64,000 nt of DNA from Sediminicoccus rosea (lineage in GTDB: Bacteria; Pseudomonadota; Alphaproteobacteria; Acetobacterales; Acetobacteraceae). The notes beneath the pieces are model-generated. The model had not been told where the DNA came from. It did not search any database and worked only from the letters and a program-made list of their open reading frames with translations. Each line of letters opens with the position of its first letter. The first letter of the stretch is position 1. The DNA lies in the NCBI RefSeq assembly GCF_033547095.1, contig NZ_CP137852.1, forward strand, positions 2,349,501 through 2,413,500. Reading direction: 5' to 3'. Shown here in pieces: positions 25,572 to 34,154 of this stretch. A program made the position numbers and the translations under genes.

Positions 25572-27205
25572 GTCAGGGCATTGTCCGCCCGGCTGCCCGA
25601 GGCCCGAACCGGCCCGCCATCCGTCATCGCCAGCGCCACCGCCTCCGCGACGCGGATGCCATCCACACCGGCCGACATGATGCCCCCCGCATAGCCGGCA
25701 CCTTCACCCGCCGGATACAGGCCGGGCGTGTTCAGGCTCTGGCAATCCACCCCGCGCGGAATCCGCACGGGCGAGGAGGTCCGCGTCTCCACCCCCGTCA
25801 TCACCGCATCGGCCAGCGCGAAGCCCGGGATCTGCTTGTCGAAGGCGGGCAGCGCCTCACGCATCGCCGCCACCACGAAATCCGGCAGGCAGGTCGCGAG
25901 GTCCGTCGGCGTCACCCCCGGCCGGTAGGAGGGGATGACATCCCCCAGCGAGGTCGAAGGCCGCCCCGCCAGGAAATCCCCCACGCGCTGCGCCGGCGCC
26001 GCATAGGTGCCACCGCCGGCCGCGAAGGCCCGCTCCTCCCAATGCCGCTGGAATGCGATGCCGGCGAGCGGCCCGCCCGGGTAATCCACCTCCGGCGTGA
26101 TGCCGACGACGATCCCCGCATTGGCATTGCGCTCATTGCGCGAATACTGGCTCATCCCGTTCGTCACGAGGCGCCCCGGCTCGCTCGCCGCCGCCACCAC
26201 GGTCCCGCCCGGGCACATGCAGAAGCTGTAGACCGAGCGCCCATTGGCCGCGTGATGCACAAGCTTGTAGTCGGCCGCGCCCAGCAGTGGATGCCCCGCA
26301 TGCGGCCCGAAGCGCTGGCGGTCGATCAGCGACTGCGGATGCTCGATGCGCACGCCGATGGAGAAGGGCTTGGCCTGCATCGCCACCCCACGCTCCAGCA
26401 GCATGCCGAAGCTGTCCCGCGCCGAGTGCCCGATGGCCAGCACCACATGCCGCGCCGCGATCCGCTCGCCGCCCTCCAGCACCACGCCCCGCACGCGCCG
26501 CTGATCATCGAGGTCGAGATCCGTCACCCGGCAGCCGAAGCGGTATTCCCCGCCCAGCCCCTCGATGGTCTCGCGGATGGATTCCACCATCTGCACCAGG
26601 CGGAAGGTGCCGATATGCGGCTTGCTGACGTAGAGGATCTCCTCCGGCGCGCCGGCCTTCACGAACTCCTCCAGCACCTTGCGGCCGAAGTGGAAGGGGT
26701 CCTTGATCTGCGACCAGAGCTTCCCGTCCGAAAACGTGCCGGCCCCGCCCTCGCCGAACTGCACGTTGCTCTCTGGGTGCAGCGTGTTCCGCCGCCAGAG
26801 GTCCCAGGTGTCCTTGGTGCGCTGCCGCACCACCTTCCCACGCTCCAGGATGATCGGCCGGAAGCCCGACTGCGCGAGGATCAGCGCCGCCAGCAGCCCG
26901 CAGGGCCCGGTGCCGATCACCACCGGCCGCTCCGTCATCCCCGCCGGCGCCCGCGCCACGAAGCGATAGGCGGTGTCCGGCGCCACGCGCAGCGTCGCAT
27001 CGCGCGCCAGCAGCGCGGCCTCGCCCTCCACCTCCACGTCCAGCGTATAGGCCAGCATGATCCGCTTCGGGTTCCGCGCGTCATAGCCGCGGCGGAAGAT
27101 GGTGAAGCCCTGATGCGCCGCCCCGCCCAGCCGCGCGCGCACCGCGGCGTCCAGCGCCTCGGGCGGGTGGTCGAGCGGCAGGCGGATCTCGGTCAGGCGG
27201 AGCAT
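25562..27205 (-). CDS. FAD-dependent oxidoreductase, COG2509-type
   Basis: 547 residues. A small ferredoxin-like N-terminal domain (residues 1-90) comes before the FAD-binding motif VVIGTGPCGLLAALILAQSGFRPIILERG. Then come NTLHPESNVQFGEGGAGTFSDGKL, VLAIGHSARDSFGMLLERGV, YSFCMCPGGTVVAAASEPG and, near the end, TSSPVRIPRG and GLYPAGEGAGYAGGIMSAGVDG. This matches the widespread, poorly characterised flavoprotein family COG2509, whose substrate is not known. It converges with the HpnL-like gene, overlapping its end by 10 bases. Confidence 0.88.
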   Translation of the reverse strand: MLRLTEIRLPLDHPPEALDAAVRARLGGAAHQGFTIFRRGYDARNPKRIMLAYTLDVEVEGEAALLARDATLRVAPDTAYRFVARAPAGMTERPVVIGTGPCGLLAALILAQSGFRPIILERGKVVRQRTKDTWDLWRRNTLHPESNVQFGEGGAGTFSDGKLWSQIKDPFHFGRKVLEEFVKAGAPEEILYVSKPHIGTFRLVQMVESIRETIEGLGGEYRFGCRVTDLDLDDQRRVRGVVLEGGERIAARHVVLAIGHSARDSFGMLLERGVAMQAKPFSIGVRIEHPQSLIDRQRFGPHAGHPLLGAADYKLVHHAANGRSVYSFCMCPGGTVVAAASEPGRLVTNGMSQYSRNERNANAGIVVGITPEVDYPGGPLAGIAFQRHWEERAFAAGGGTYAAPAQRVGDFLAGRPSTSLGDVIPSYRPGVTPTDLATCLPDFVVAAMREALPAFDKQIPGFALADAVMTGVETRTSSPVRIPRGVDCQSLNTPGLYPAGEGAGYAGGIMSAGVDGIRVAEAVALAMTDGGPVRASGSRADNALTYG

Positions 27206-27298
27206 GGCGCTCCCTCAACCCCGATGGCCCGTGGCGTCAAGCCCGCCATGCGAGGGGGCCCGTATCGCCCGGCCCGCGCCTGGGCTACACAGGCCGTG

Positions 27299-27661
27299 AT
27301 GAGCTTCAAAGACACCCACGAAAATCGCGCGGCCAAGGCCGCCGAAGCCAAACGCAAGCTGATGGAGCGCTTCCGCGCCCAGCCCGGCCCCGATGACCCC
27401 GCCGTGATCGCACGCCTCGCCGAGCAGAAGGCCGCCGGCGAGGCCCGCGCCCAGCGCCAGGCCGAGGCCCGCGCCCGCGCCGAGGCCAAGGCCGCCGCCG
27501 CCGCCGCCGCCAAGGCCGAGGCCGAGGCCGCCAAGCAGCGCGAAGCCGAGGAGGCGACGCGCATCGCCGCTGAGGCCAAGCGCAAGGCGGCCGAGCTTCT
27601 CATCGAACAGAAGGCCGCGCGGGACGCGCGCTACGCCGCCCGGAAGGCGAAGAAGCGCTGA
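27299..27661 (+). CDS. DUF6481-type small charged coiled-coil protein
   Basis: 120 residues starting MSFKDTHENRAAKAAEAKRK. Almost the whole protein is Ala, Lys, Arg and Glu, with a predicted long helix or coiled coil (residues 45-105), ending in RYAARKAKKR. It matches what I know of the DUF6481 family of alphaproteobacteria; no function is known, and a nucleic-acid- or ribosome-associated role would fit the charge. A GTG one codon earlier is an alternative start. It is divergent from the flavoprotein gene. Confidence 0.75.
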   Translation: MSFKDTHENRAAKAAEAKRKLMERFRAQPGPDDPAVIARLAEQKAAGEARAQRQAEARARAEAKAAAAAAAKAEAEAAKQREAEEATRIAAEAKRKAAELLIEQKAARDARYAARKAKKR

Positions 27662-27683
27662 CGAGCCGCTGAAAGGCGGCGCG

Positions 27684-27699
27684 GGCCGGCCAGCCGGCC
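27684..27699 (+). terminator. Hairpin between convergent genes
   Basis: GGCCGGC (27684-27690) and GCCGGCC (27693-27699) form a GC-rich stem between the converging DUF6481 and hpnJ genes. There is no T run. It probably acts as a shared terminator. Confidence 0.45.
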
Positions 27700-27778
27700 G
27701 GTCCGGCCATCACCACCCATGCGGCGCCCCCCTGGAAGCCGGAGACCTCCGCCCGGCCGCCGGGGGATGCGAGGGCGA

Positions 27779-29212
27779 TCACGCGGCCTTGCTGGCCGCG
27801 CGCTCCTTCAGGAAGCGGAAGAACTCCACACCCTCACGCAGGCGGCGCACCATCATCTGCCGGTCGCGGATCATCTCGCCGCAGATGGACGCGATCTTCG
27901 GCGCCCGGAAGTAGAACTTCCGATAGAAGGTCTCGACGCTGTCGAAGATCTCGGTATGCGCCAGGTGCGGATAGGCCAGCGGCGCGATCTGCACGCCATG
28001 CGCGTCCACATATTCCGTATTCGCCGTATCGAGCCAGCCCTCGCGCGCCGCCTGGTCCCACAGGAAGGTCCCCGGATAGGGCGCCGCCAGGCTCACCTGG
28101 ATGGTGTGCGGGTTGGTCTCCACCGCGAAGCGGATCGTCTCCTGGATCGTCTCCGTCGTCTCGCCGGGCAGGCCGAGGATGAAGGTGCCGTGGATCTTGA
28201 TGCCGAGCTCATGGCAGTCCTTCGTGAACTGCCGCGCCACGTCGATCCGCATGCCCTTCTTGATGTTGTGCAGGATCTGCTGGTTGCCGCTCTCATAGCC
28301 CACCAGCAGCAGCCGCAACCCGTTCTCCGCCATCACCTTGAGCGAGGAGCGCGGCACGTTCGCCTTGGCGTTGCAGGACCACGTCACACCCAGTTTGCCC
28401 AGCTCCTTCGCGATGGCCTCGGCGCGCGGCAGGTCATCGGTGAAGGTGTCGTCATCGAAGAAGATCTCCCGGTTGCCCGGGAAATTCGCCTGGATGTACT
28501 TGATCTCCTGGATCACATGCTCGACCGAGCGCGTGCGGTAGCGATGCCCGCCCACCGTCTGCGGCCAGAGGCAGAAGGTGCAGCGGCTCTTGCAGCCGCG
28601 GCCGGTGTAGAAGCTGACATAGGGGTGCTTCAGATAGCCGATGAAGTACTTCTCGTATTGCAGGTCCCGCTTGTAGACCTCGCTCACGAAGGGCAGTTCA
28701 TCCATGTTTTCCAGCATGGCGCGGTCCTTGTTGTGGACGATCACGCCTTCGCCGTTGCGGTAGCTGATGCCGGGAATGGCGCCGAGATCCATGCCCGAGG
28801 CCACATCCTTCACCGTGAAGTCGAACTCATTGCGCGCGACCCAATCCACCACCGGCGCATCGCGCAGGCTCTCATTCGCCTGGACGGCGACCTTGGCGCC
28901 GATCAGCCCGATCTTGAGGTTCGGATTCTCGGCCTTCAGCCGCTCGGCCACCTTGATGTCCGACGCGAAGGAGGGCGTGGAGGTGTGCAGCACCGCGAGA
29001 TCATAATCCCGCGCCATGGGCGCGACATCGGCCAGCGTCTGGTTGTGCGGGGGCGCATCCACCAGCTTGGAGCCGGGAATCAGCGCCGCCGGCTGCGCGA
29101 GCCAGGTGGGGAACCAGAAGGACTTGATCTCCCGCCGCGCCTGGTAGCGCGAGCCGGCGCCGCCATCGAAGCCATCAAAGGAAGGAGCCTGGAGGAAGAG
29201 CGTGCGCATCAT
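27779..29212 (-). CDS. hpnJ: HpnJ, hopanoid-associated B12-binding radical SAM protein
   Basis: 477 residues. The N-terminal half is a B12-binding-like Rossmann domain (DYDLAVLHTSTPSFASDIKVAERL, KIGLIGAKVAV). The radical-SAM cluster cysteines are Cys207, Cys211 and Cys214 (GRGCKSRCTFCLWPQ), followed by EIFFDDDTFTDD and IHGTFILGLPGET. The opening MMRTLFLQAPSFDGFDGGAGSRYQARREI is characteristic of HpnJ. HpnJ is needed for the cyclitol-ether head group of bacteriohopanetetrol in other bacteria. No hpnI or hpnK lies beside it, so the hopanoid genes appear dispersed, or separated by insertions such as the adjacent reverse transcriptase. Confidence 0.9.
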   Translation of the reverse strand: MMRTLFLQAPSFDGFDGGAGSRYQARREIKSFWFPTWLAQPAALIPGSKLVDAPPHNQTLADVAPMARDYDLAVLHTSTPSFASDIKVAERLKAENPNLKIGLIGAKVAVQANESLRDAPVVDWVARNEFDFTVKDVASGMDLGAIPGISYRNGEGVIVHNKDRAMLENMDELPFVSEVYKRDLQYEKYFIGYLKHPYVSFYTGRGCKSRCTFCLWPQTVGGHRYRTRSVEHVIQEIKYIQANFPGNREIFFDDDTFTDDLPRAEAIAKELGKLGVTWSCNAKANVPRSSLKVMAENGLRLLLVGYESGNQQILHNIKKGMRIDVARQFTKDCHELGIKIHGTFILGLPGETTETIQETIRFAVETNPHTIQVSLAAPYPGTFLWDQAAREGWLDTANTEYVDAHGVQIAPLAYPHLAHTEIFDSVETFYRKFYFRAPKIASICGEMIRDRQMMVRRLREGVEFFRFLKERAASKAA

Positions 29213-29448
29213 GCCGGGAGCAAGCCTTTTGTCAGAGGCGACCCAGAGGCGCGAACCCCAGGGCCGGAGAGCGAACGGATGCCGGGTTTGCCCGCGGAAG
29301 TCCAGCGGCGGATGGAGTCGCGGCGGGTGCGCGGGCGAGGGCGGGGCGGCGCCTTACCATCTTACGGCCTTACGCCCTTAACCCGCGAAGTGATGTTTTC
29401 GGACAAATGCCGGAGGGGGCGCAGCGGGGGCGGGGCTGAGGTTTGGAC

Positions 29449-29467
29449 GGGGAGGGGGAGGGTGGGG
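29449..29467 (+). repeat. G-quadruplex motif
   Basis: GGGGAGGGGGAGGGTGGGG has four G tracts separated by single bases, a strong sequence motif for a parallel quadruplex; further G tracts lie at 29413-29436. It is on the coding strand of the RT, about 250 bases before its start. Confidence 0.7.
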
Positions 29468-29519
29468 CGCATGAATGCGAGTGTAGGAAAAAATACCGGA
29501 AAAGTCGAGGGGAAGTGAC

Positions 29520-29542
29520 TTGGGGAGCCACGGGCTCCCCAA
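29520..29542 (+). repeat. Perfect inverted repeat (10-bp stem, ACG loop)
   Basis: TTGGGGAGCC, loop ACG, GGCTCCCCAA. No T run follows. It may be a terminator, a structural element of a non-coding RNA, or a copy of a dispersed GGGGGCTCC-type hairpin; a related hairpin lies at 52805-52822. Confidence 0.7.
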
Positions 29543-29713
29543 ACCCCTGCGGCGACTTGGCGCGAATTCGGATGGACTCCGTGTTCTGGATGAGCGTTCA
29601 GCCTTTGGTGCATCTGCTGCTTATCCCAGCGGAGGCGACGAACGGCGACGAAATCTCGCTTTACCTTTCGCCAGATATCCCTAGCGTTGCTTCGAATAAG
29701 AGCGAGGCTCGCT

Positions 29714-31342
29714 TTGGCTAAAAGGGTGCGTCTAAACCGGTCTCAACGGCTTCGCCGCTTCCTTGAGGCTGGCTATTTAGCCGAGGAGCTACCGCCACCA
29801 TTTGTTTCCTACTCGTTTGCTCGGGTTCGGGGCGCGCTTCTGACTGAGTGGAAGGCGGCCACCGACTTTCCCAAGTTTCGTTCCAGACCAGAGCAGTTCA
29901 CGATCCCACGATACGCGTCTGCCCGTCGGCGAATTTCCATACCAAATCCAATAAATTTCTTCCGGCTTTCATCGGAAATCGCAAACGGATGGAATGAGAT
30001 CAGAGATTTTTTGGCAAGTTCAAAGATAACCGAATTCCGTCCGATCATCGATGCGGAAGGACCTCGATCAATATTCAAACTTGATTTTGATCTGGTGGGC
30101 CAGAGGCAAGCTCAAATACTTGCTGATTACGATTTTGTATTTAAGACAGATATTAGTAGGTTTTATCCGAGCATTTACACCCACTCCATTCCATGGGCTC
30201 TCTATGGTAAGATATGGGTCAAAGAAAATCACAAAACTAAGAAATTTAAGGACTCTTTAGGCGATAAACTCGATTTTGAATTACGTAAGGGGCAAGAAGA
30301 TCAGTCAATTGGTATTCCTATAGGTCCAGATACATCGCGCATATTGTCGGAGATCGTCGCTATTGGACTGGAGCGTGAACTTAAGCCATTGCTGTCTGAC
30401 TTAGATCGGAGATCTGTCCGATATGTTGATGATATATTGATCGGGTTTGACGAATTTGAAAGTGAGGATAAAATCTCTGCTGTGCTTGAGGGGGCGGTGG
30501 CGCACTTTGAGCTAGATATAAATATTAATAAGACTAAAATTCTCGGAAAAAGGGGCGTCGAAACATTCGAGTGGATTACTGAGCTACGCGCTTGTTCTGT
30601 TCGGAACGTAACTCCTAAGGCACAAAGAGACGACCTTGAGAGATTCTTTAAGCTTGCGCTGTTCTATGCTTCGACTAATGAGAAAGATGCGGTCCTCAAA
30701 TGGGCAATGAAGCGATCTAGATCGTTTGATGTCCTAAAAGACAATAGTAATTTTTATTGCGATTATATGTTAAGACTTTGTAGAAAATCTTTATCAACCC
30801 TACCCATATTATCGCAAATGTTGATCGAAGCGAAAAGCAACGGATGGCCAATACCGTCCGATCGAATAAATAAATTTATCAGTGATATTTTGATGATTCA
30901 TGCGCCGATTGGCCATGCATTTGAGGTTAGTTGGGCTTTATTCCTGGCAAAGGGGCTTAGAATAAAATTGTATAAAGAAAAAATGTCAGATGTATTTAAA
31001 ATAGAAAGTAGTCTTTGTGCGCTAATCTGCATGGATTTAAACGCTCGTGGACTAATTGATGGGGGAGTCGATGAAAGCTACTGGTTGCTTTACGCGAATG
31101 AACAAGGCCTTCGGTCTCCGATGTGGCTCCTTTCATACGAAGCGGCCCGAAAGAAATGGTGGTCTGACGGCCGATACAAATACGTGGAGAAGCATTCTCT
31201 CTTCGGGCCAATGTTAAAGAGGGGTGTGTTTTTCTACGATGAGAACCGCAACGTCCCACGTCTTCGGAGCGAGCTGCAACGCGCAAAGAGGCAGCGCATC
31301 AGAACGGCGAAGATCTTTAGAAATTGGGTGGACTACATGTAG
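29714..31342 (+). CDS. Stand-alone reverse transcriptase, candidate defence-associated RT
   Basis: 542 residues from the TTG at 29714 (GCGAGG about seven bases upstream); an in-frame TTG at 29687 is the alternative. The RT palm is clear: FVFKTDISRFYPSIY with Asp146, GIPIGPDTSRILSEIVAIGLE, and RSVRYVDDILIGF with the catalytic Tyr-Val-Asp-Asp at 237-240. INKTKILGKRGVETFEW follows. The N-terminus (RLRRFLEAGYLAEELPPPF) and the roughly 240-residue helical C-terminus have no maturase, integrase or HNH domain, and no intron structure or msr/msd is evident. This fits the Abi/UG/DRT group of phage-defence RTs, though the subclass is unclear. Codon use is strikingly AT-rich against about 70% GC around it, a sign of transfer. 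Confidence 0.88.
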   Translation: MAKRVRLNRSQRLRRFLEAGYLAEELPPPFVSYSFARVRGALLTEWKAATDFPKFRSRPEQFTIPRYASARRRISIPNPINFFRLSSEIANGWNEIRDFLASSKITEFRPIIDAEGPRSIFKLDFDLVGQRQAQILADYDFVFKTDISRFYPSIYTHSIPWALYGKIWVKENHKTKKFKDSLGDKLDFELRKGQEDQSIGIPIGPDTSRILSEIVAIGLERELKPLLSDLDRRSVRYVDDILIGFDEFESEDKISAVLEGAVAHFELDININKTKILGKRGVETFEWITELRACSVRNVTPKAQRDDLERFFKLALFYASTNEKDAVLKWAMKRSRSFDVLKDNSNFYCDYMLRLCRKSLSTLPILSQMLIEAKSNGWPIPSDRINKFISDILMIHAPIGHAFEVSWALFLAKGLRIKLYKEKMSDVFKIESSLCALICMDLNARGLIDGGVDESYWLLYANEQGLRSPMWLLSYEAARKKWWSDGRYKYVEKHSLFGPMLKRGVFFYDENRNVPRLRSELQRAKRQRIRTAKIFRNWVDYM

Positions 31343-31387
31343 ATTTAAATGGACGGATAATCCATCGGAGTTTGCTTAGCCTTTACC

Positions 31388-32497
31388 TTACCCCGCCCCC
31401 ATCAACCCCCTGATCCGCCGCCCATGATTGATCACCGCCCCCAGTGACCCCAGGTTCCGCTTATCCGCCAGCGCGGACAGCGCCGCGCCGATCTTCCCCT
31501 CGCGCAGCCGCGCAAAGCTATCCCCCAGCGCCACCGAGAAATGCAGCATGATGCTCGCATCGCGGTAGCAATCCGTGGTGCAGGCCTGGCAGCCGTCGCG
31601 CACCGCCATCTCCGGCCGGTAGTCCATGACCTTGGAGATCGGCTGGTTCCAATCCTCGCAGCGCCACAAATCGTAGTTCCAGTCGAGGTAGAAATACTTG
31701 TACCCCGCATGGCAGATGAAGCGCTCGCCCTGGCCGGTCAGGCGGCGCCGCATATCGGCGATGCCCTCCTTCGGGTTGAACACGGGGATCACCGCCCGCG
31801 TCTTCTCCACCCCGTCAAACGCCGCGATCAGCTCGGCGACGGACATGTCCACCAGCGCGCTATCCTCGGAATAGACGAGCGAGGAGGAGCCCAGCGCCGC
31901 CTTGCGCGGGTAGGAGAAGGTGACGGCGGCAAACCCCAGCTCCCTCAGGAAATGCCCGAGGGCCGCGTAATCCCGCACCAGCCGCGTCATGGCGACGGAG
32001 GCGATGGGCGTGATCCCCATCTCCTTCATCCGGCCCGTGCTTTCCTTGATCCGCTCGCACACGCCCTTCAGGCCGCGATTCTTCTCGTGCTCGCCCGCAT
32101 CCTCGCTGTCGATCGAGATGAAGATGGTGCTGATGCCGGTGCCCCGCAGGCTTTCCAACTGGCCGGGCAGCAGCCAGCCATTGGTCACCATGGTGGGCTG
32201 CACGCCCATCTCGCTGGCGGTCCGCGCCATCTCGGCGATTCGCTTGTGCAGCAGCGGCTCGCCGCCCATGAAGGTCACGAAGCGGACATTGGCCTTGAGG
32301 CGCATATGCGCCAGCGCATCGGCAAAGAGGTCGGCGTTCATGGTCCGCCGGTCGGTCACGAAACCCTTGTCATGCGCGAAATTGCAGAAATCGCAGGTCG
32401 CGTTGCACATATTGGTGACGGAGGCGTTCAAAATCGCCGGCCCGCCCTGCGGGACCAGCTTCAAAAGGTCCAAGAAACCGGAACGATTCGCCGCCAT
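31388..32497 (-). CDS. Radical SAM protein with SPASM-like C-terminal cysteines
   Basis: 369 residues from the ATG at 32497; GAGGGG six bases upstream decides this start over the ATG at 32503. The radical-SAM cluster cysteines are Cys31, Cys35 and Cys38 (TNMCNATCDFCNF). FMGGEPLLHKRI is the GGEP motif binding SAM. A cysteine-rich C-terminal part (FICHAGYKYFYLDWN, LWRCEDW, GCQACTTDCYRD) suggests a SPASM/Twitch auxiliary iron-sulfur cluster. Such enzymes modify peptides or small molecules. It follows the DUF1772 gene by 29 bases in the same direction. Not HpnH, whose motif context differs. The substrate is unknown. Confidence 0.85.
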   Translation of the reverse strand: MAANRSGFLDLLKLVPQGGPAILNASVTNMCNATCDFCNFAHDKGFVTDRRTMNADLFADALAHMRLKANVRFVTFMGGEPLLHKRIAEMARTASEMGVQPTMVTNGWLLPGQLESLRGTGISTIFISIDSEDAGEHEKNRGLKGVCERIKESTGRMKEMGITPIASVAMTRLVRDYAALGHFLRELGFAAVTFSYPRKAALGSSSLVYSEDSALVDMSVAELIAAFDGVEKTRAVIPVFNPKEGIADMRRRLTGQGERFICHAGYKYFYLDWNYDLWRCEDWNQPISKVMDYRPEMAVRDGCQACTTDCYRDASIMLHFSVALGDSFARLREGKIGAALSALADKRNLGSLGAVINHGRRIRGLMGAG

Positions 32498-32503
32498 AGT
32501 CAT

Positions 32504-32509
32504 CCCCTC
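32504..32509 (-). promoter_or_regulatory. Ribosome binding site of the radical SAM gene
   Basis: GAGGGG on the minus strand directly abuts the ATG at 32503 and is six bases from the ATG at 32497, so the second ATG is the likely start. Confidence 0.7.
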
Positions 32510-32526
32510 GAAGGTCGGGGCGATGC

Positions 32527-32946
32527 TTACCCCATGGCCCAGAGGTAAGCCAGAACAGCCGCGCACCCCAGGGCGCTGCGCCCCGCATGCAGCCACCCCC
32601 AGCGGCGGATCAGCGCCCGGCTCGCCGCATCACCCACCGGCATGGCGTTCAGCCGGTGGTTGGTCGGCATGATGCCGAGCAGCGTATAGGGCCAATTGGC
32701 CAGGATCAGCGCCGCCCCCAGCAGGAAGCGCGGATCGCCCGCCACCCAGGCGGCGCCGAGCCCCAGCAGCCCCGAAATCACCGCCAGGCTCGCCTGCATG
32801 GCGAAGCCGCGCGCATAGCTCGGCTTCCACTGCGCCAGGAGTGCGGCGTCATCCAGGCCAAGCCGCGCCGGCTGCTCGGCCAGGTTGATGTAGATGGCCG
32901 CCCCCGCGAAGAGCGCGGCACCCACCAGCGCCAGCTCCGCCAGCAT
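32527..32946 (-). CDS. DUF1772 (anthrone oxygenase-like) membrane protein
   Basis: 139 residues with four hydrophobic segments ([72 protein letters not shown]). The conserved [13 protein letters not shown] and [14 protein letters not shown] motifs belong to DUF1772, a family including fungal anthrone oxygenases; the bacterial members have no settled role. The start overlaps the aminotransferase stop by one base (TGATG), so it is coupled to that gene. Confidence 0.8.
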
Positions 32947-34154
32947 CACGCCGCCAGCGCCCGGAACCCGGCCTCCGCCGCATCCAGCACCAGGGCGATG
33001 TCCGCCTCGGTATGCGCGGCGCAGAGGAACATGTTGTGCCGCGGGTGCAAATAGGCGCCCGCCTTCAGCGCCGCCGCGCAGAAGGCCCGCCCCGCCCGGA
33101 ATTCCTGGTCGCCCTCGAACAGGAAGAGCGGCATGGAGACCGGCCCCGATTGCCGCAGGCCGATGTTGAAGCCCCGCGCCCGCTCGGCCAGGCCCTCCCG
33201 CAGCATCAGGCCCAGCCGTTCGAGCTGCCCCACCACGTCCCGCCGCTCCAGCTCCTCCAGCGTGGCCACGGCCGCGGCCATGGAGACGGCCGAGCACCAG
33301 AAGGAGCCGGTGACGAAGACGCTCGCCGCCGCCTCCCGCAGCGAATCCCGCCCGGTCACGGCGGCCAGCGCATGCCCGTTGGCGATGGCCTTGCTCCAGG
33401 CCGAGAGGTCGGGCCGGACGCCCAAGCCCTCCCAGGAGCCGCCCGGATGCAGCCGGAACCCGGCGCGCACGTCGTCCAGGATCAGCGCGGCGCCGCGCGT
33501 GTCGCAGATCCGCCGCGCGGCCTCGGCGAATTCCCGGCTGGGCAGTTCCTGGTCCACCACATTGTCGTGGCGGAAGGCGGTGATGATGATGCCGGCCAGG
33601 TCGCTCCCCGCCGCGTCGGCGGCCGCGGTGAGGCTCGCCACGTCATTGTAGTCGAAGCGGCCCTGGTTCGCCCGGTCCTCCGGCCGCGTGCCGGCGGGCA
33701 CCGGCGTGCACCAGGGCGCGGCCCCGTGATAGGAGCCGTTCGCCAGCAGGATGGTGCCCCGCCCCGTGGCGGCGCGGGCGATGGTGACGCAGGCGGTGGT
33801 GGCATCCGTCCCGTTCTTCATGAACATCGCCCAATCGGCGGCCGGGATGCGCTCCACCAGGCGTTCGGCGAGTTCGACCAGGACGGGGCCCGGCCCGTTC
33901 AGGCAATCGCCGAGATCCGCCTGGCGCCGCGCCGCCGCCTCGACCACCGGGTCGTGATGGCCGAGGATGATGGGCCCCCAGCTGCACATCAGGTCCACAT
34001 AGCGGTTGCCATCCACGTCCCAGACATGCCCGCCCTCGCCACGGGCGAAGAATTGCGGATAGCCCTCGGGCAGCTTCGCGGCGTTCAGGTGTCCCCACAT
34101 GCCGCCGGGGATGACCTTCGCAGCGCGCGCGCGGAGCGCGGCGTCGGTGCTCAA
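32946..34154 (-). CDS. Class III aminotransferase, glutamate-1-semialdehyde aminomutase-like
   Basis: 402 residues from the TTG at 34154, with GGGAGG seven bases upstream. It is a PLP enzyme of the GSA-aminomutase group: [73 protein letters not shown] (Asp binding the PLP nitrogen) and [19 protein letters not shown] with the PLP lysine. It sits between a peptide-type binding protein and DUF1772 in a tight operon, so it is probably catabolic, transferring the amino group of an imported amine or amino acid, rather than the haem enzyme HemL. Confidence 0.85.

Follow-up and report, generated by a model that had tools for sequence, protein, structure and literature searches.

The DRT4 reverse transcriptase has been reported to polymerise random single-stranded DNA without a template, and the phage protein ORF55 protects this product so that it reaches toxic levels (PMC13213688). 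ORF55 is reported to activate DRT6 as well, although the chemistry of the DRT6 product is described there as less resolved (PMC13213688). Synthesis by DRT4 is reportedly primed by a conserved tyrosine (PMC13314766), and untemplated, protein-primed synthesis is also reported for AbiK and Abi-P2 (PDB 7r06 and 7r08), which combine a reverse transcriptase (RT) with a helical domain (PMC9508834). Here we describe an RT gene at positions 29714..31342 (+ strand) of a 64,000-nucleotide stretch of the Sediminicoccus rosea genome (contig NZ_CP137852.1, positions 2,349,501 to 2,413,500; hereafter the window), situated between hpnJ and a radical-SAM gene. It is highly probable that the gene encodes a DRT6 antiviral protein, i.e., a DRT4-like polymerase that would act as a hexamer and make tyrosine-primed, untemplated single-stranded DNA, and that it arrived horizontally as a lone cargo at a defence site.

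Assignment of the reverse transcriptase to DRT6

The gene is a single-gene system of 542 residues ending at a TAG stop codon. The longest version of the open reading frame (ORF) opens at TTG 29687 and has 551 residues. However, the start at TTG 29714 taken by the initial annotation is reasonable, as it is preceded by GAGG six bases 5' and the alignment with the nearest homologue opens there, at residue 10 of the longer ORF. The catalytic Asp146 (30149..30151, + strand) is invariant in all 54 aligned homologues, and of the YVDD box read from the translation (residues 237-240; 30422..30433, + strand) Asp239 is equally invariant while Asp240 is found in at least 90%. The gene has one match in its own genome. 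Its sole Pfam match at E up to 10 is RVT_1, with 28.1 bits and thus below the cut-off of 29.6.

The top profile for the protein is Drt6 (PADLOC PDLC03748), which covers residues 20-536 of the 551-residue ORF with an E-value of 2.9e-157 and leads the next profile by 65 bits. The solved DRT6 (PDB 9wy8, a hexamer) superposes on the AlphaFold2 model (1.7 A, 493 residues) between model residues 7 and 512, with 34% identity. In the ranking of folds DRT6 comes first and the DRT4/UG15 structures (9vdo and 9l9s) next; AbiK is near, and DRT2, DRT9 and the retrons are far. The C-terminal region (about residues 300-510; 30611..31243, + strand), which lies inside the 9wy8 alignment, is predicted to be almost entirely helical at a block predicted local distance difference test score of 92-98. 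The protein thus resembles DRT6 in its whole-length predicted fold, its single gene, its catalytic box and its helical C-terminal region. The differences are the 34% sequence identity, a short tail ending in DYM and, for the present gene, its place at a hotspot of a high-G+C genome. The assignment to DRT6, by profile and by near-superposition of the predicted fold on the solved one, is well supported. We take UG12 to be the same class as DRT6.

The gene is foreign in composition. Its G+C content is 0.443 against 0.688 for the remainder of the window, its third-position G+C is 0.45 against 0.90 for hpnJ and 0.89 for the radical-SAM gene, and the interval 30001-31000, inside the gene, has the lowest G+C (0.398) of any 1-kb interval in the 64 kb. 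The initial annotation had described an intact RT carrying Asp146 and YVDD, with AT-rich codon use, a C-terminal region to be checked for alpha-helices and an orientation opposite to that of both flanking genes, and in these respects it is borne out.

The same annotation had suggested a defence RT, possibly of an undescribed UG class. The part of this that stands is a foreign, single-gene RT of defence type whose C-terminal region is helical, on which sequence, fold and site (with its differing defence cargos in congeners) agree. An undescribed UG/Abi class would fit the mere 21-25% identity to six aligned homologues and a C-terminus that is basic here and acidic in most of them. Nevertheless, the lead of the Drt6 profile, the near-superposition and the existence of homologues with 67-69% identity make it very unlikely, and to the extent that sequence and predicted fold can decide the matter it is refuted. 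That the enzyme is instead a DRT4 (UG15), which would imply the same type of mechanism, is improbable. Several points do weigh against DRT6 here: the PADLOC models for DRT4 and DRT6 overlap, full-length "Drt4" models score 458 and 424 bits on this protein, and among the 54 homologues the best Drt4 value (7.7e-230) beats the best Drt6 value (9.7e-185). The DRT4/UG15 structures share the architecture, and untemplated single-stranded DNA synthesis and tyrosine priming are reported for them. On the other hand, the score with the NCBIfam Drt4 equivalog, 188.7 bits, is far below its cut-off of 450, and the sequence match to the solved DRT4 is much weaker than that to the solved DRT6, with a best stretch restricted to residues 33-304.

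It is extremely unlikely that the gene belongs to an RNA-templated system (similar to DRT2, DRT9 or DRT10, a retron or a diversity-generating retroelement, DGR) with an unrecognised RNA. An Rfam search at E up to 1 gave no match in 27000-34000 and so none of the RNA parts of a group II intron, retron or DGR that were envisaged as refuting a defence RT, no separate search for DGR repeats being included; the group II maturase model TIGR04416 yields 31.2 bits against a cut-off of 300. Moreover, blastn at E up to 1 found no similarity in the 500 bases upstream or the 300 downstream when the locus was compared with a relative of 69% protein identity, and the closest folds are those of DRT6, DRT4 and AbiK. 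The lack of RNA matches speaks against the RNA-templated DRT types, although a poorly conserved, fast-changing RNA could be missed. That the gene is decayed or silent and has no function is quite improbable. This would agree with the foreign composition, the TTG start and the state of the nearest relative, from Xanthobacter oligotrophicus (locus L035), which looks broken, its matching stretch being interrupted by an in-frame stop at residue 177; the ORF in S. rosea, however, is intact, keeps the catalytic and the other invariant residues and is predicted to fold with confidence.

Proposed mechanism and candidate priming residue

By analogy with the reports on DRT4 and AbiK, the DRT6 protein would most likely form a hexamer, use a tyrosine of its own to prime DNA synthesis and make single-stranded DNA that is copied from no nucleic-acid template. 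Shielding of this product by a phage protein, a trigger that in this host is putative, would cause the DNA to build up and the infected cell to be stopped, and the gene may in this way confer phage resistance.

The priming residue is, in our candidate reading, Tyr541 (31334..31336, + strand), the penultimate residue in the C-terminal tail. A function of this kind is suggested by DRT3b, for which Tyr666 of the C-terminal tail is the reported primer (PMC13174585), and by DRT9, for which priming is reported as probable at two tyrosines of the C-terminal tail (PMC12483538). In DRT10 a C-terminal serine or probably tyrosine is reported to be used (PMC12632851). Tails were counted in 77 homologues, i.e., 88 rows less nine with internal stops and two identical ones. 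A tyrosine falls within the last six residues in 51 of these, where 14.2 would be expected from the composition of the body of the protein, and the excess persists when homologues are thinned at 50% identity (29 of 42 against 7.9 expected) or at 40% (17 of 25 against 4.8). In the next eight six-residue windows inward the count is 7 to 11 of 42; the ninth, located in conserved sequence, reaches 19. Tyrosine is the most enriched residue in the last six positions and aspartate the second, and kin of the protein end in DYL, EYI, RYF and DYL.

There are several observations that count against Tyr541. Thirteen of the 42 non-redundant homologues have no tyrosine in their last six residues, and AbiK is reported to be primed at an N-terminal tyrosine, Tyr44 (PMC9508834). 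By this analogy Tyr21 (29774..29776, + strand), which is tyrosine in 43 and phenylalanine in 7 of the 54 aligned homologues, is a real rival. As Tyr155 (54/54), Tyr475 (54/54) and Tyr508 (52/54) are also widely kept, conservation alone fails to single out Tyr541. Tyr541 is preferred over Tyr21 because the tail varies in both length and sequence and yet keeps its terminal tyrosine. The literature searched contained no report of a priming residue in DRT6 or of a hotspot between hpnJ and a radical-SAM gene, and the primary DRT6 paper may describe priming. The tyrosine pattern reduces the question of DRT6 priming to two single-residue tests, at Tyr541 and at Tyr21.

A defence hotspot between hpnJ and a radical-SAM gene

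The RT itself is one further DRT6 in a known and widespread family, to which the C-terminal tyrosine and the hotspot are useful additions, and the site is of greater interest than the enzyme. Its left flank is hpnJ (27779..29212, - strand), identified by TIGR03471 with 808.5 bits against a cut-off of 577.6, and its right flank is a radical-SAM gene (31388..32596, - strand) whose stop codon abuts the cargo. Among 21 genomes searched, both flanks were found on one contig in seven congeners, S. rosea included, and all seven hold a different cargo in the gap: DRT6; a fused AriAB (PARIS); DRT8 with a nuclease; restriction-modification-like genes; a kinase with a phosphatase; and two sets without matches. 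The first four match defence models strongly and the kinase with its PP2C phosphatase moderately. Pairwise comparison of the seven loci at E up to 1e-4 found no similarity between cargos apart from their edges. The gap between hpnJ and the radical-SAM gene is thus a defence hotspot, and comparison with relatives, as the initial annotation had proposed, placed other defence cargos at the very same site. One point on the other side is that no empty site was seen.

As at least four of the seven cargos at this spot are recognisable defence systems, the unmatched cargos in G006 and G008 (L167 942-2416 and L168 1843-3256) are good candidates for undescribed defence genes, and the hotspot is worth mining for more. 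Four ORFs scanned in these two cargos had no PADLOC match, and three of the four were run against Pfam, where none matched. In G013 the same intergenic site carries, at 2555-4925 of L169 (G013:C5:1021000-1028000), a DRT8 RT with a PD-(D/E)xK partner, which differs from the system described here in having two genes and another class of RT. No recombinase was recognised among the scanned cargo proteins.

E. coli and Pseudomonas are reported to have chromosomal defence hotspots whose cargo is interchangeable (PMC10121019, PMC12629846). The present site is similar, but unlike those its slot is about 1.7-4 kb, it is bounded by hpnJ and the radical-SAM gene, and it has a DUF4096-type ORF or a presumed remnant of one at one border. 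Stretches that adjoin only one of the two flanks carry no AT-rich insert. In the family, the radical-SAM protein was matched in 15 of 200 genomes, at 69% identity or more in 12 of them (S. rosea and G008 included). Eight of the other ten were inspected over about 6.5 kb, and none of these had hpnJ there or any 500-base stretch below 0.63 G+C.

Mobility of the gene and borders of the cargo

No close copy of the RT was present in 20 genomes of the same genus, contrary to what would be found if the gene had been at this site in all relatives. A remote DRT6-like RT (28% identical) lies elsewhere in G011 (L002, G011:C1:903839-905239), and weak matches occur in G013 and G003. At E up to 0.001 the Drt6 model matches in 64 of 385 genomes of the class, exceeding 400 bits in only six, S. 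rosea included. A scan of genome contigs with the single protein gave no relative, and an alignment-based scan gave 197 loci; the 80 that were kept span Pseudomonadota, Bacteroidota, Chloroflexota, Acidobacteriota, Bacillota and, with one locus, Cyanobacteriota. Seven of 30 loci on viral contigs match across most of the query. Matches were found in 205 of 72,556 plasmid records (seven covering 80% or more of the query, with a best identity among those of 28.8%) and in 6 of 50,697 phage records (none over 80%). The nearest relatives are those of X. oligotrophicus (69%) and Phenylobacterium (68%, residues 121-551), followed by Bradyrhizobium (48%), and a quick tree clusters the protein with the first two (Shimodaira-Hasegawa-like approximate likelihood ratio test, SH-aLRT, 100).

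Of 87 loci, 85 had enough flank for a comparison of G+C content; in 82 of these the value for the RT is below that of the flank, and in 63 the gap exceeds 0.05. Among eight loci viewed with unannotated ORFs, a G+C dip of at most about 2 kb coincides with the RT in L035, L043 and L086, and in the others it is wider, cut or unclear. Because of the spread of loci over phyla, the G+C of the RT below that of the flank and these short dips, it is concluded that DRT6-like genes are widely mobile and, in some cases at least, move as a lone AT-rich gene. The gene in S. rosea was most probably acquired horizontally, as the only cargo, at an intergenic site where congeners carry other defence systems.

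The foreign cargo, defined as the stretch that differs between the seven congeneric loci in pairwise comparison, is 29554..31386: on the left the similarity breaks off at about 29553-29561, and on the right it resumes at about 31386, where the radical-SAM gene has its stop codon. The left border has a palindrome, GGGGAGCC-ACG-GGCTCCCC (29522..29540; 0.14 chance matches expected in the window), which is found at the same place in G009 and G019. Left similarity of G000, G009 and G019 ends just past it and the letters AAACCCCTGCGGC, at 29553-29561, and that of G006 ends slightly earlier, ahead of the palindrome. The palindrome was rejected as a genome-wide repeat, as the own genome has three copies when up to 3 mismatches are allowed. 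In G007, G008 and G013, hpnJ and the cargo are separated by a related 0.8-kb stretch that includes a DUF4096-type ORF (PF13340, 6.3e-19, in a Pfam run on the G013 ORF alone).

As the palindrome of G008 lies upstream of its DUF4096-type ORF and a similar element accompanies a copy of this gene near C1:599200 in S. rosea, a DUF4096 (IS4/5-like) single-ORF unit may have lost its ORF in the window and left its upstream element at 29362..29553 (- strand). This possible remnant was recognised by eye, from its resemblance to G008 and to the copy in the own genome, and tblastn gave no significant match to a DUF4096 coding remnant in the window. The S. rosea genome has seven scattered matches to the single-ORF protein, two of them remote, and at least one copy with an upstream palindrome. 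The flanks of six of these matches were viewed, and one has a 2-kb stretch of 41-50% G+C directly upstream while the other five have none. This stretch, a second AT-rich insert in the genome (L206 2000-4000, C1:1042000-1044000), encodes a protein of 348 residues and a membrane-like one of 189 residues, neither with a convincing PADLOC or NCBIfam match.

It is tempting to speculate, though the combination is rather unlikely, that the gap is an obligate slot for the exchange of compact defence cargo, in which one cargo replaces another and the site never stands empty, that the slot is marked by the DUF4096 unit, the upstream end of which borders insertions at two or more places in these genomes, that the cargos of G006, G008 and C1:1042000-1044000 are undescribed defence systems and that the C-terminal tyrosine of DRT6 is the primer.

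Known defence models run on eight neighbouring genes of the window matched hpnJ (9.5e-7) and the right-hand radical-SAM gene (pVip, i.e., viperin, 2.8e-18) and none of the other six. The latter match is weak and under the NCBIfam viperin cut-off, and no NCBIfam cut-off was reached in the best 25 of 56 matches of this protein; most likely it reflects the shared radical-SAM fold alone.
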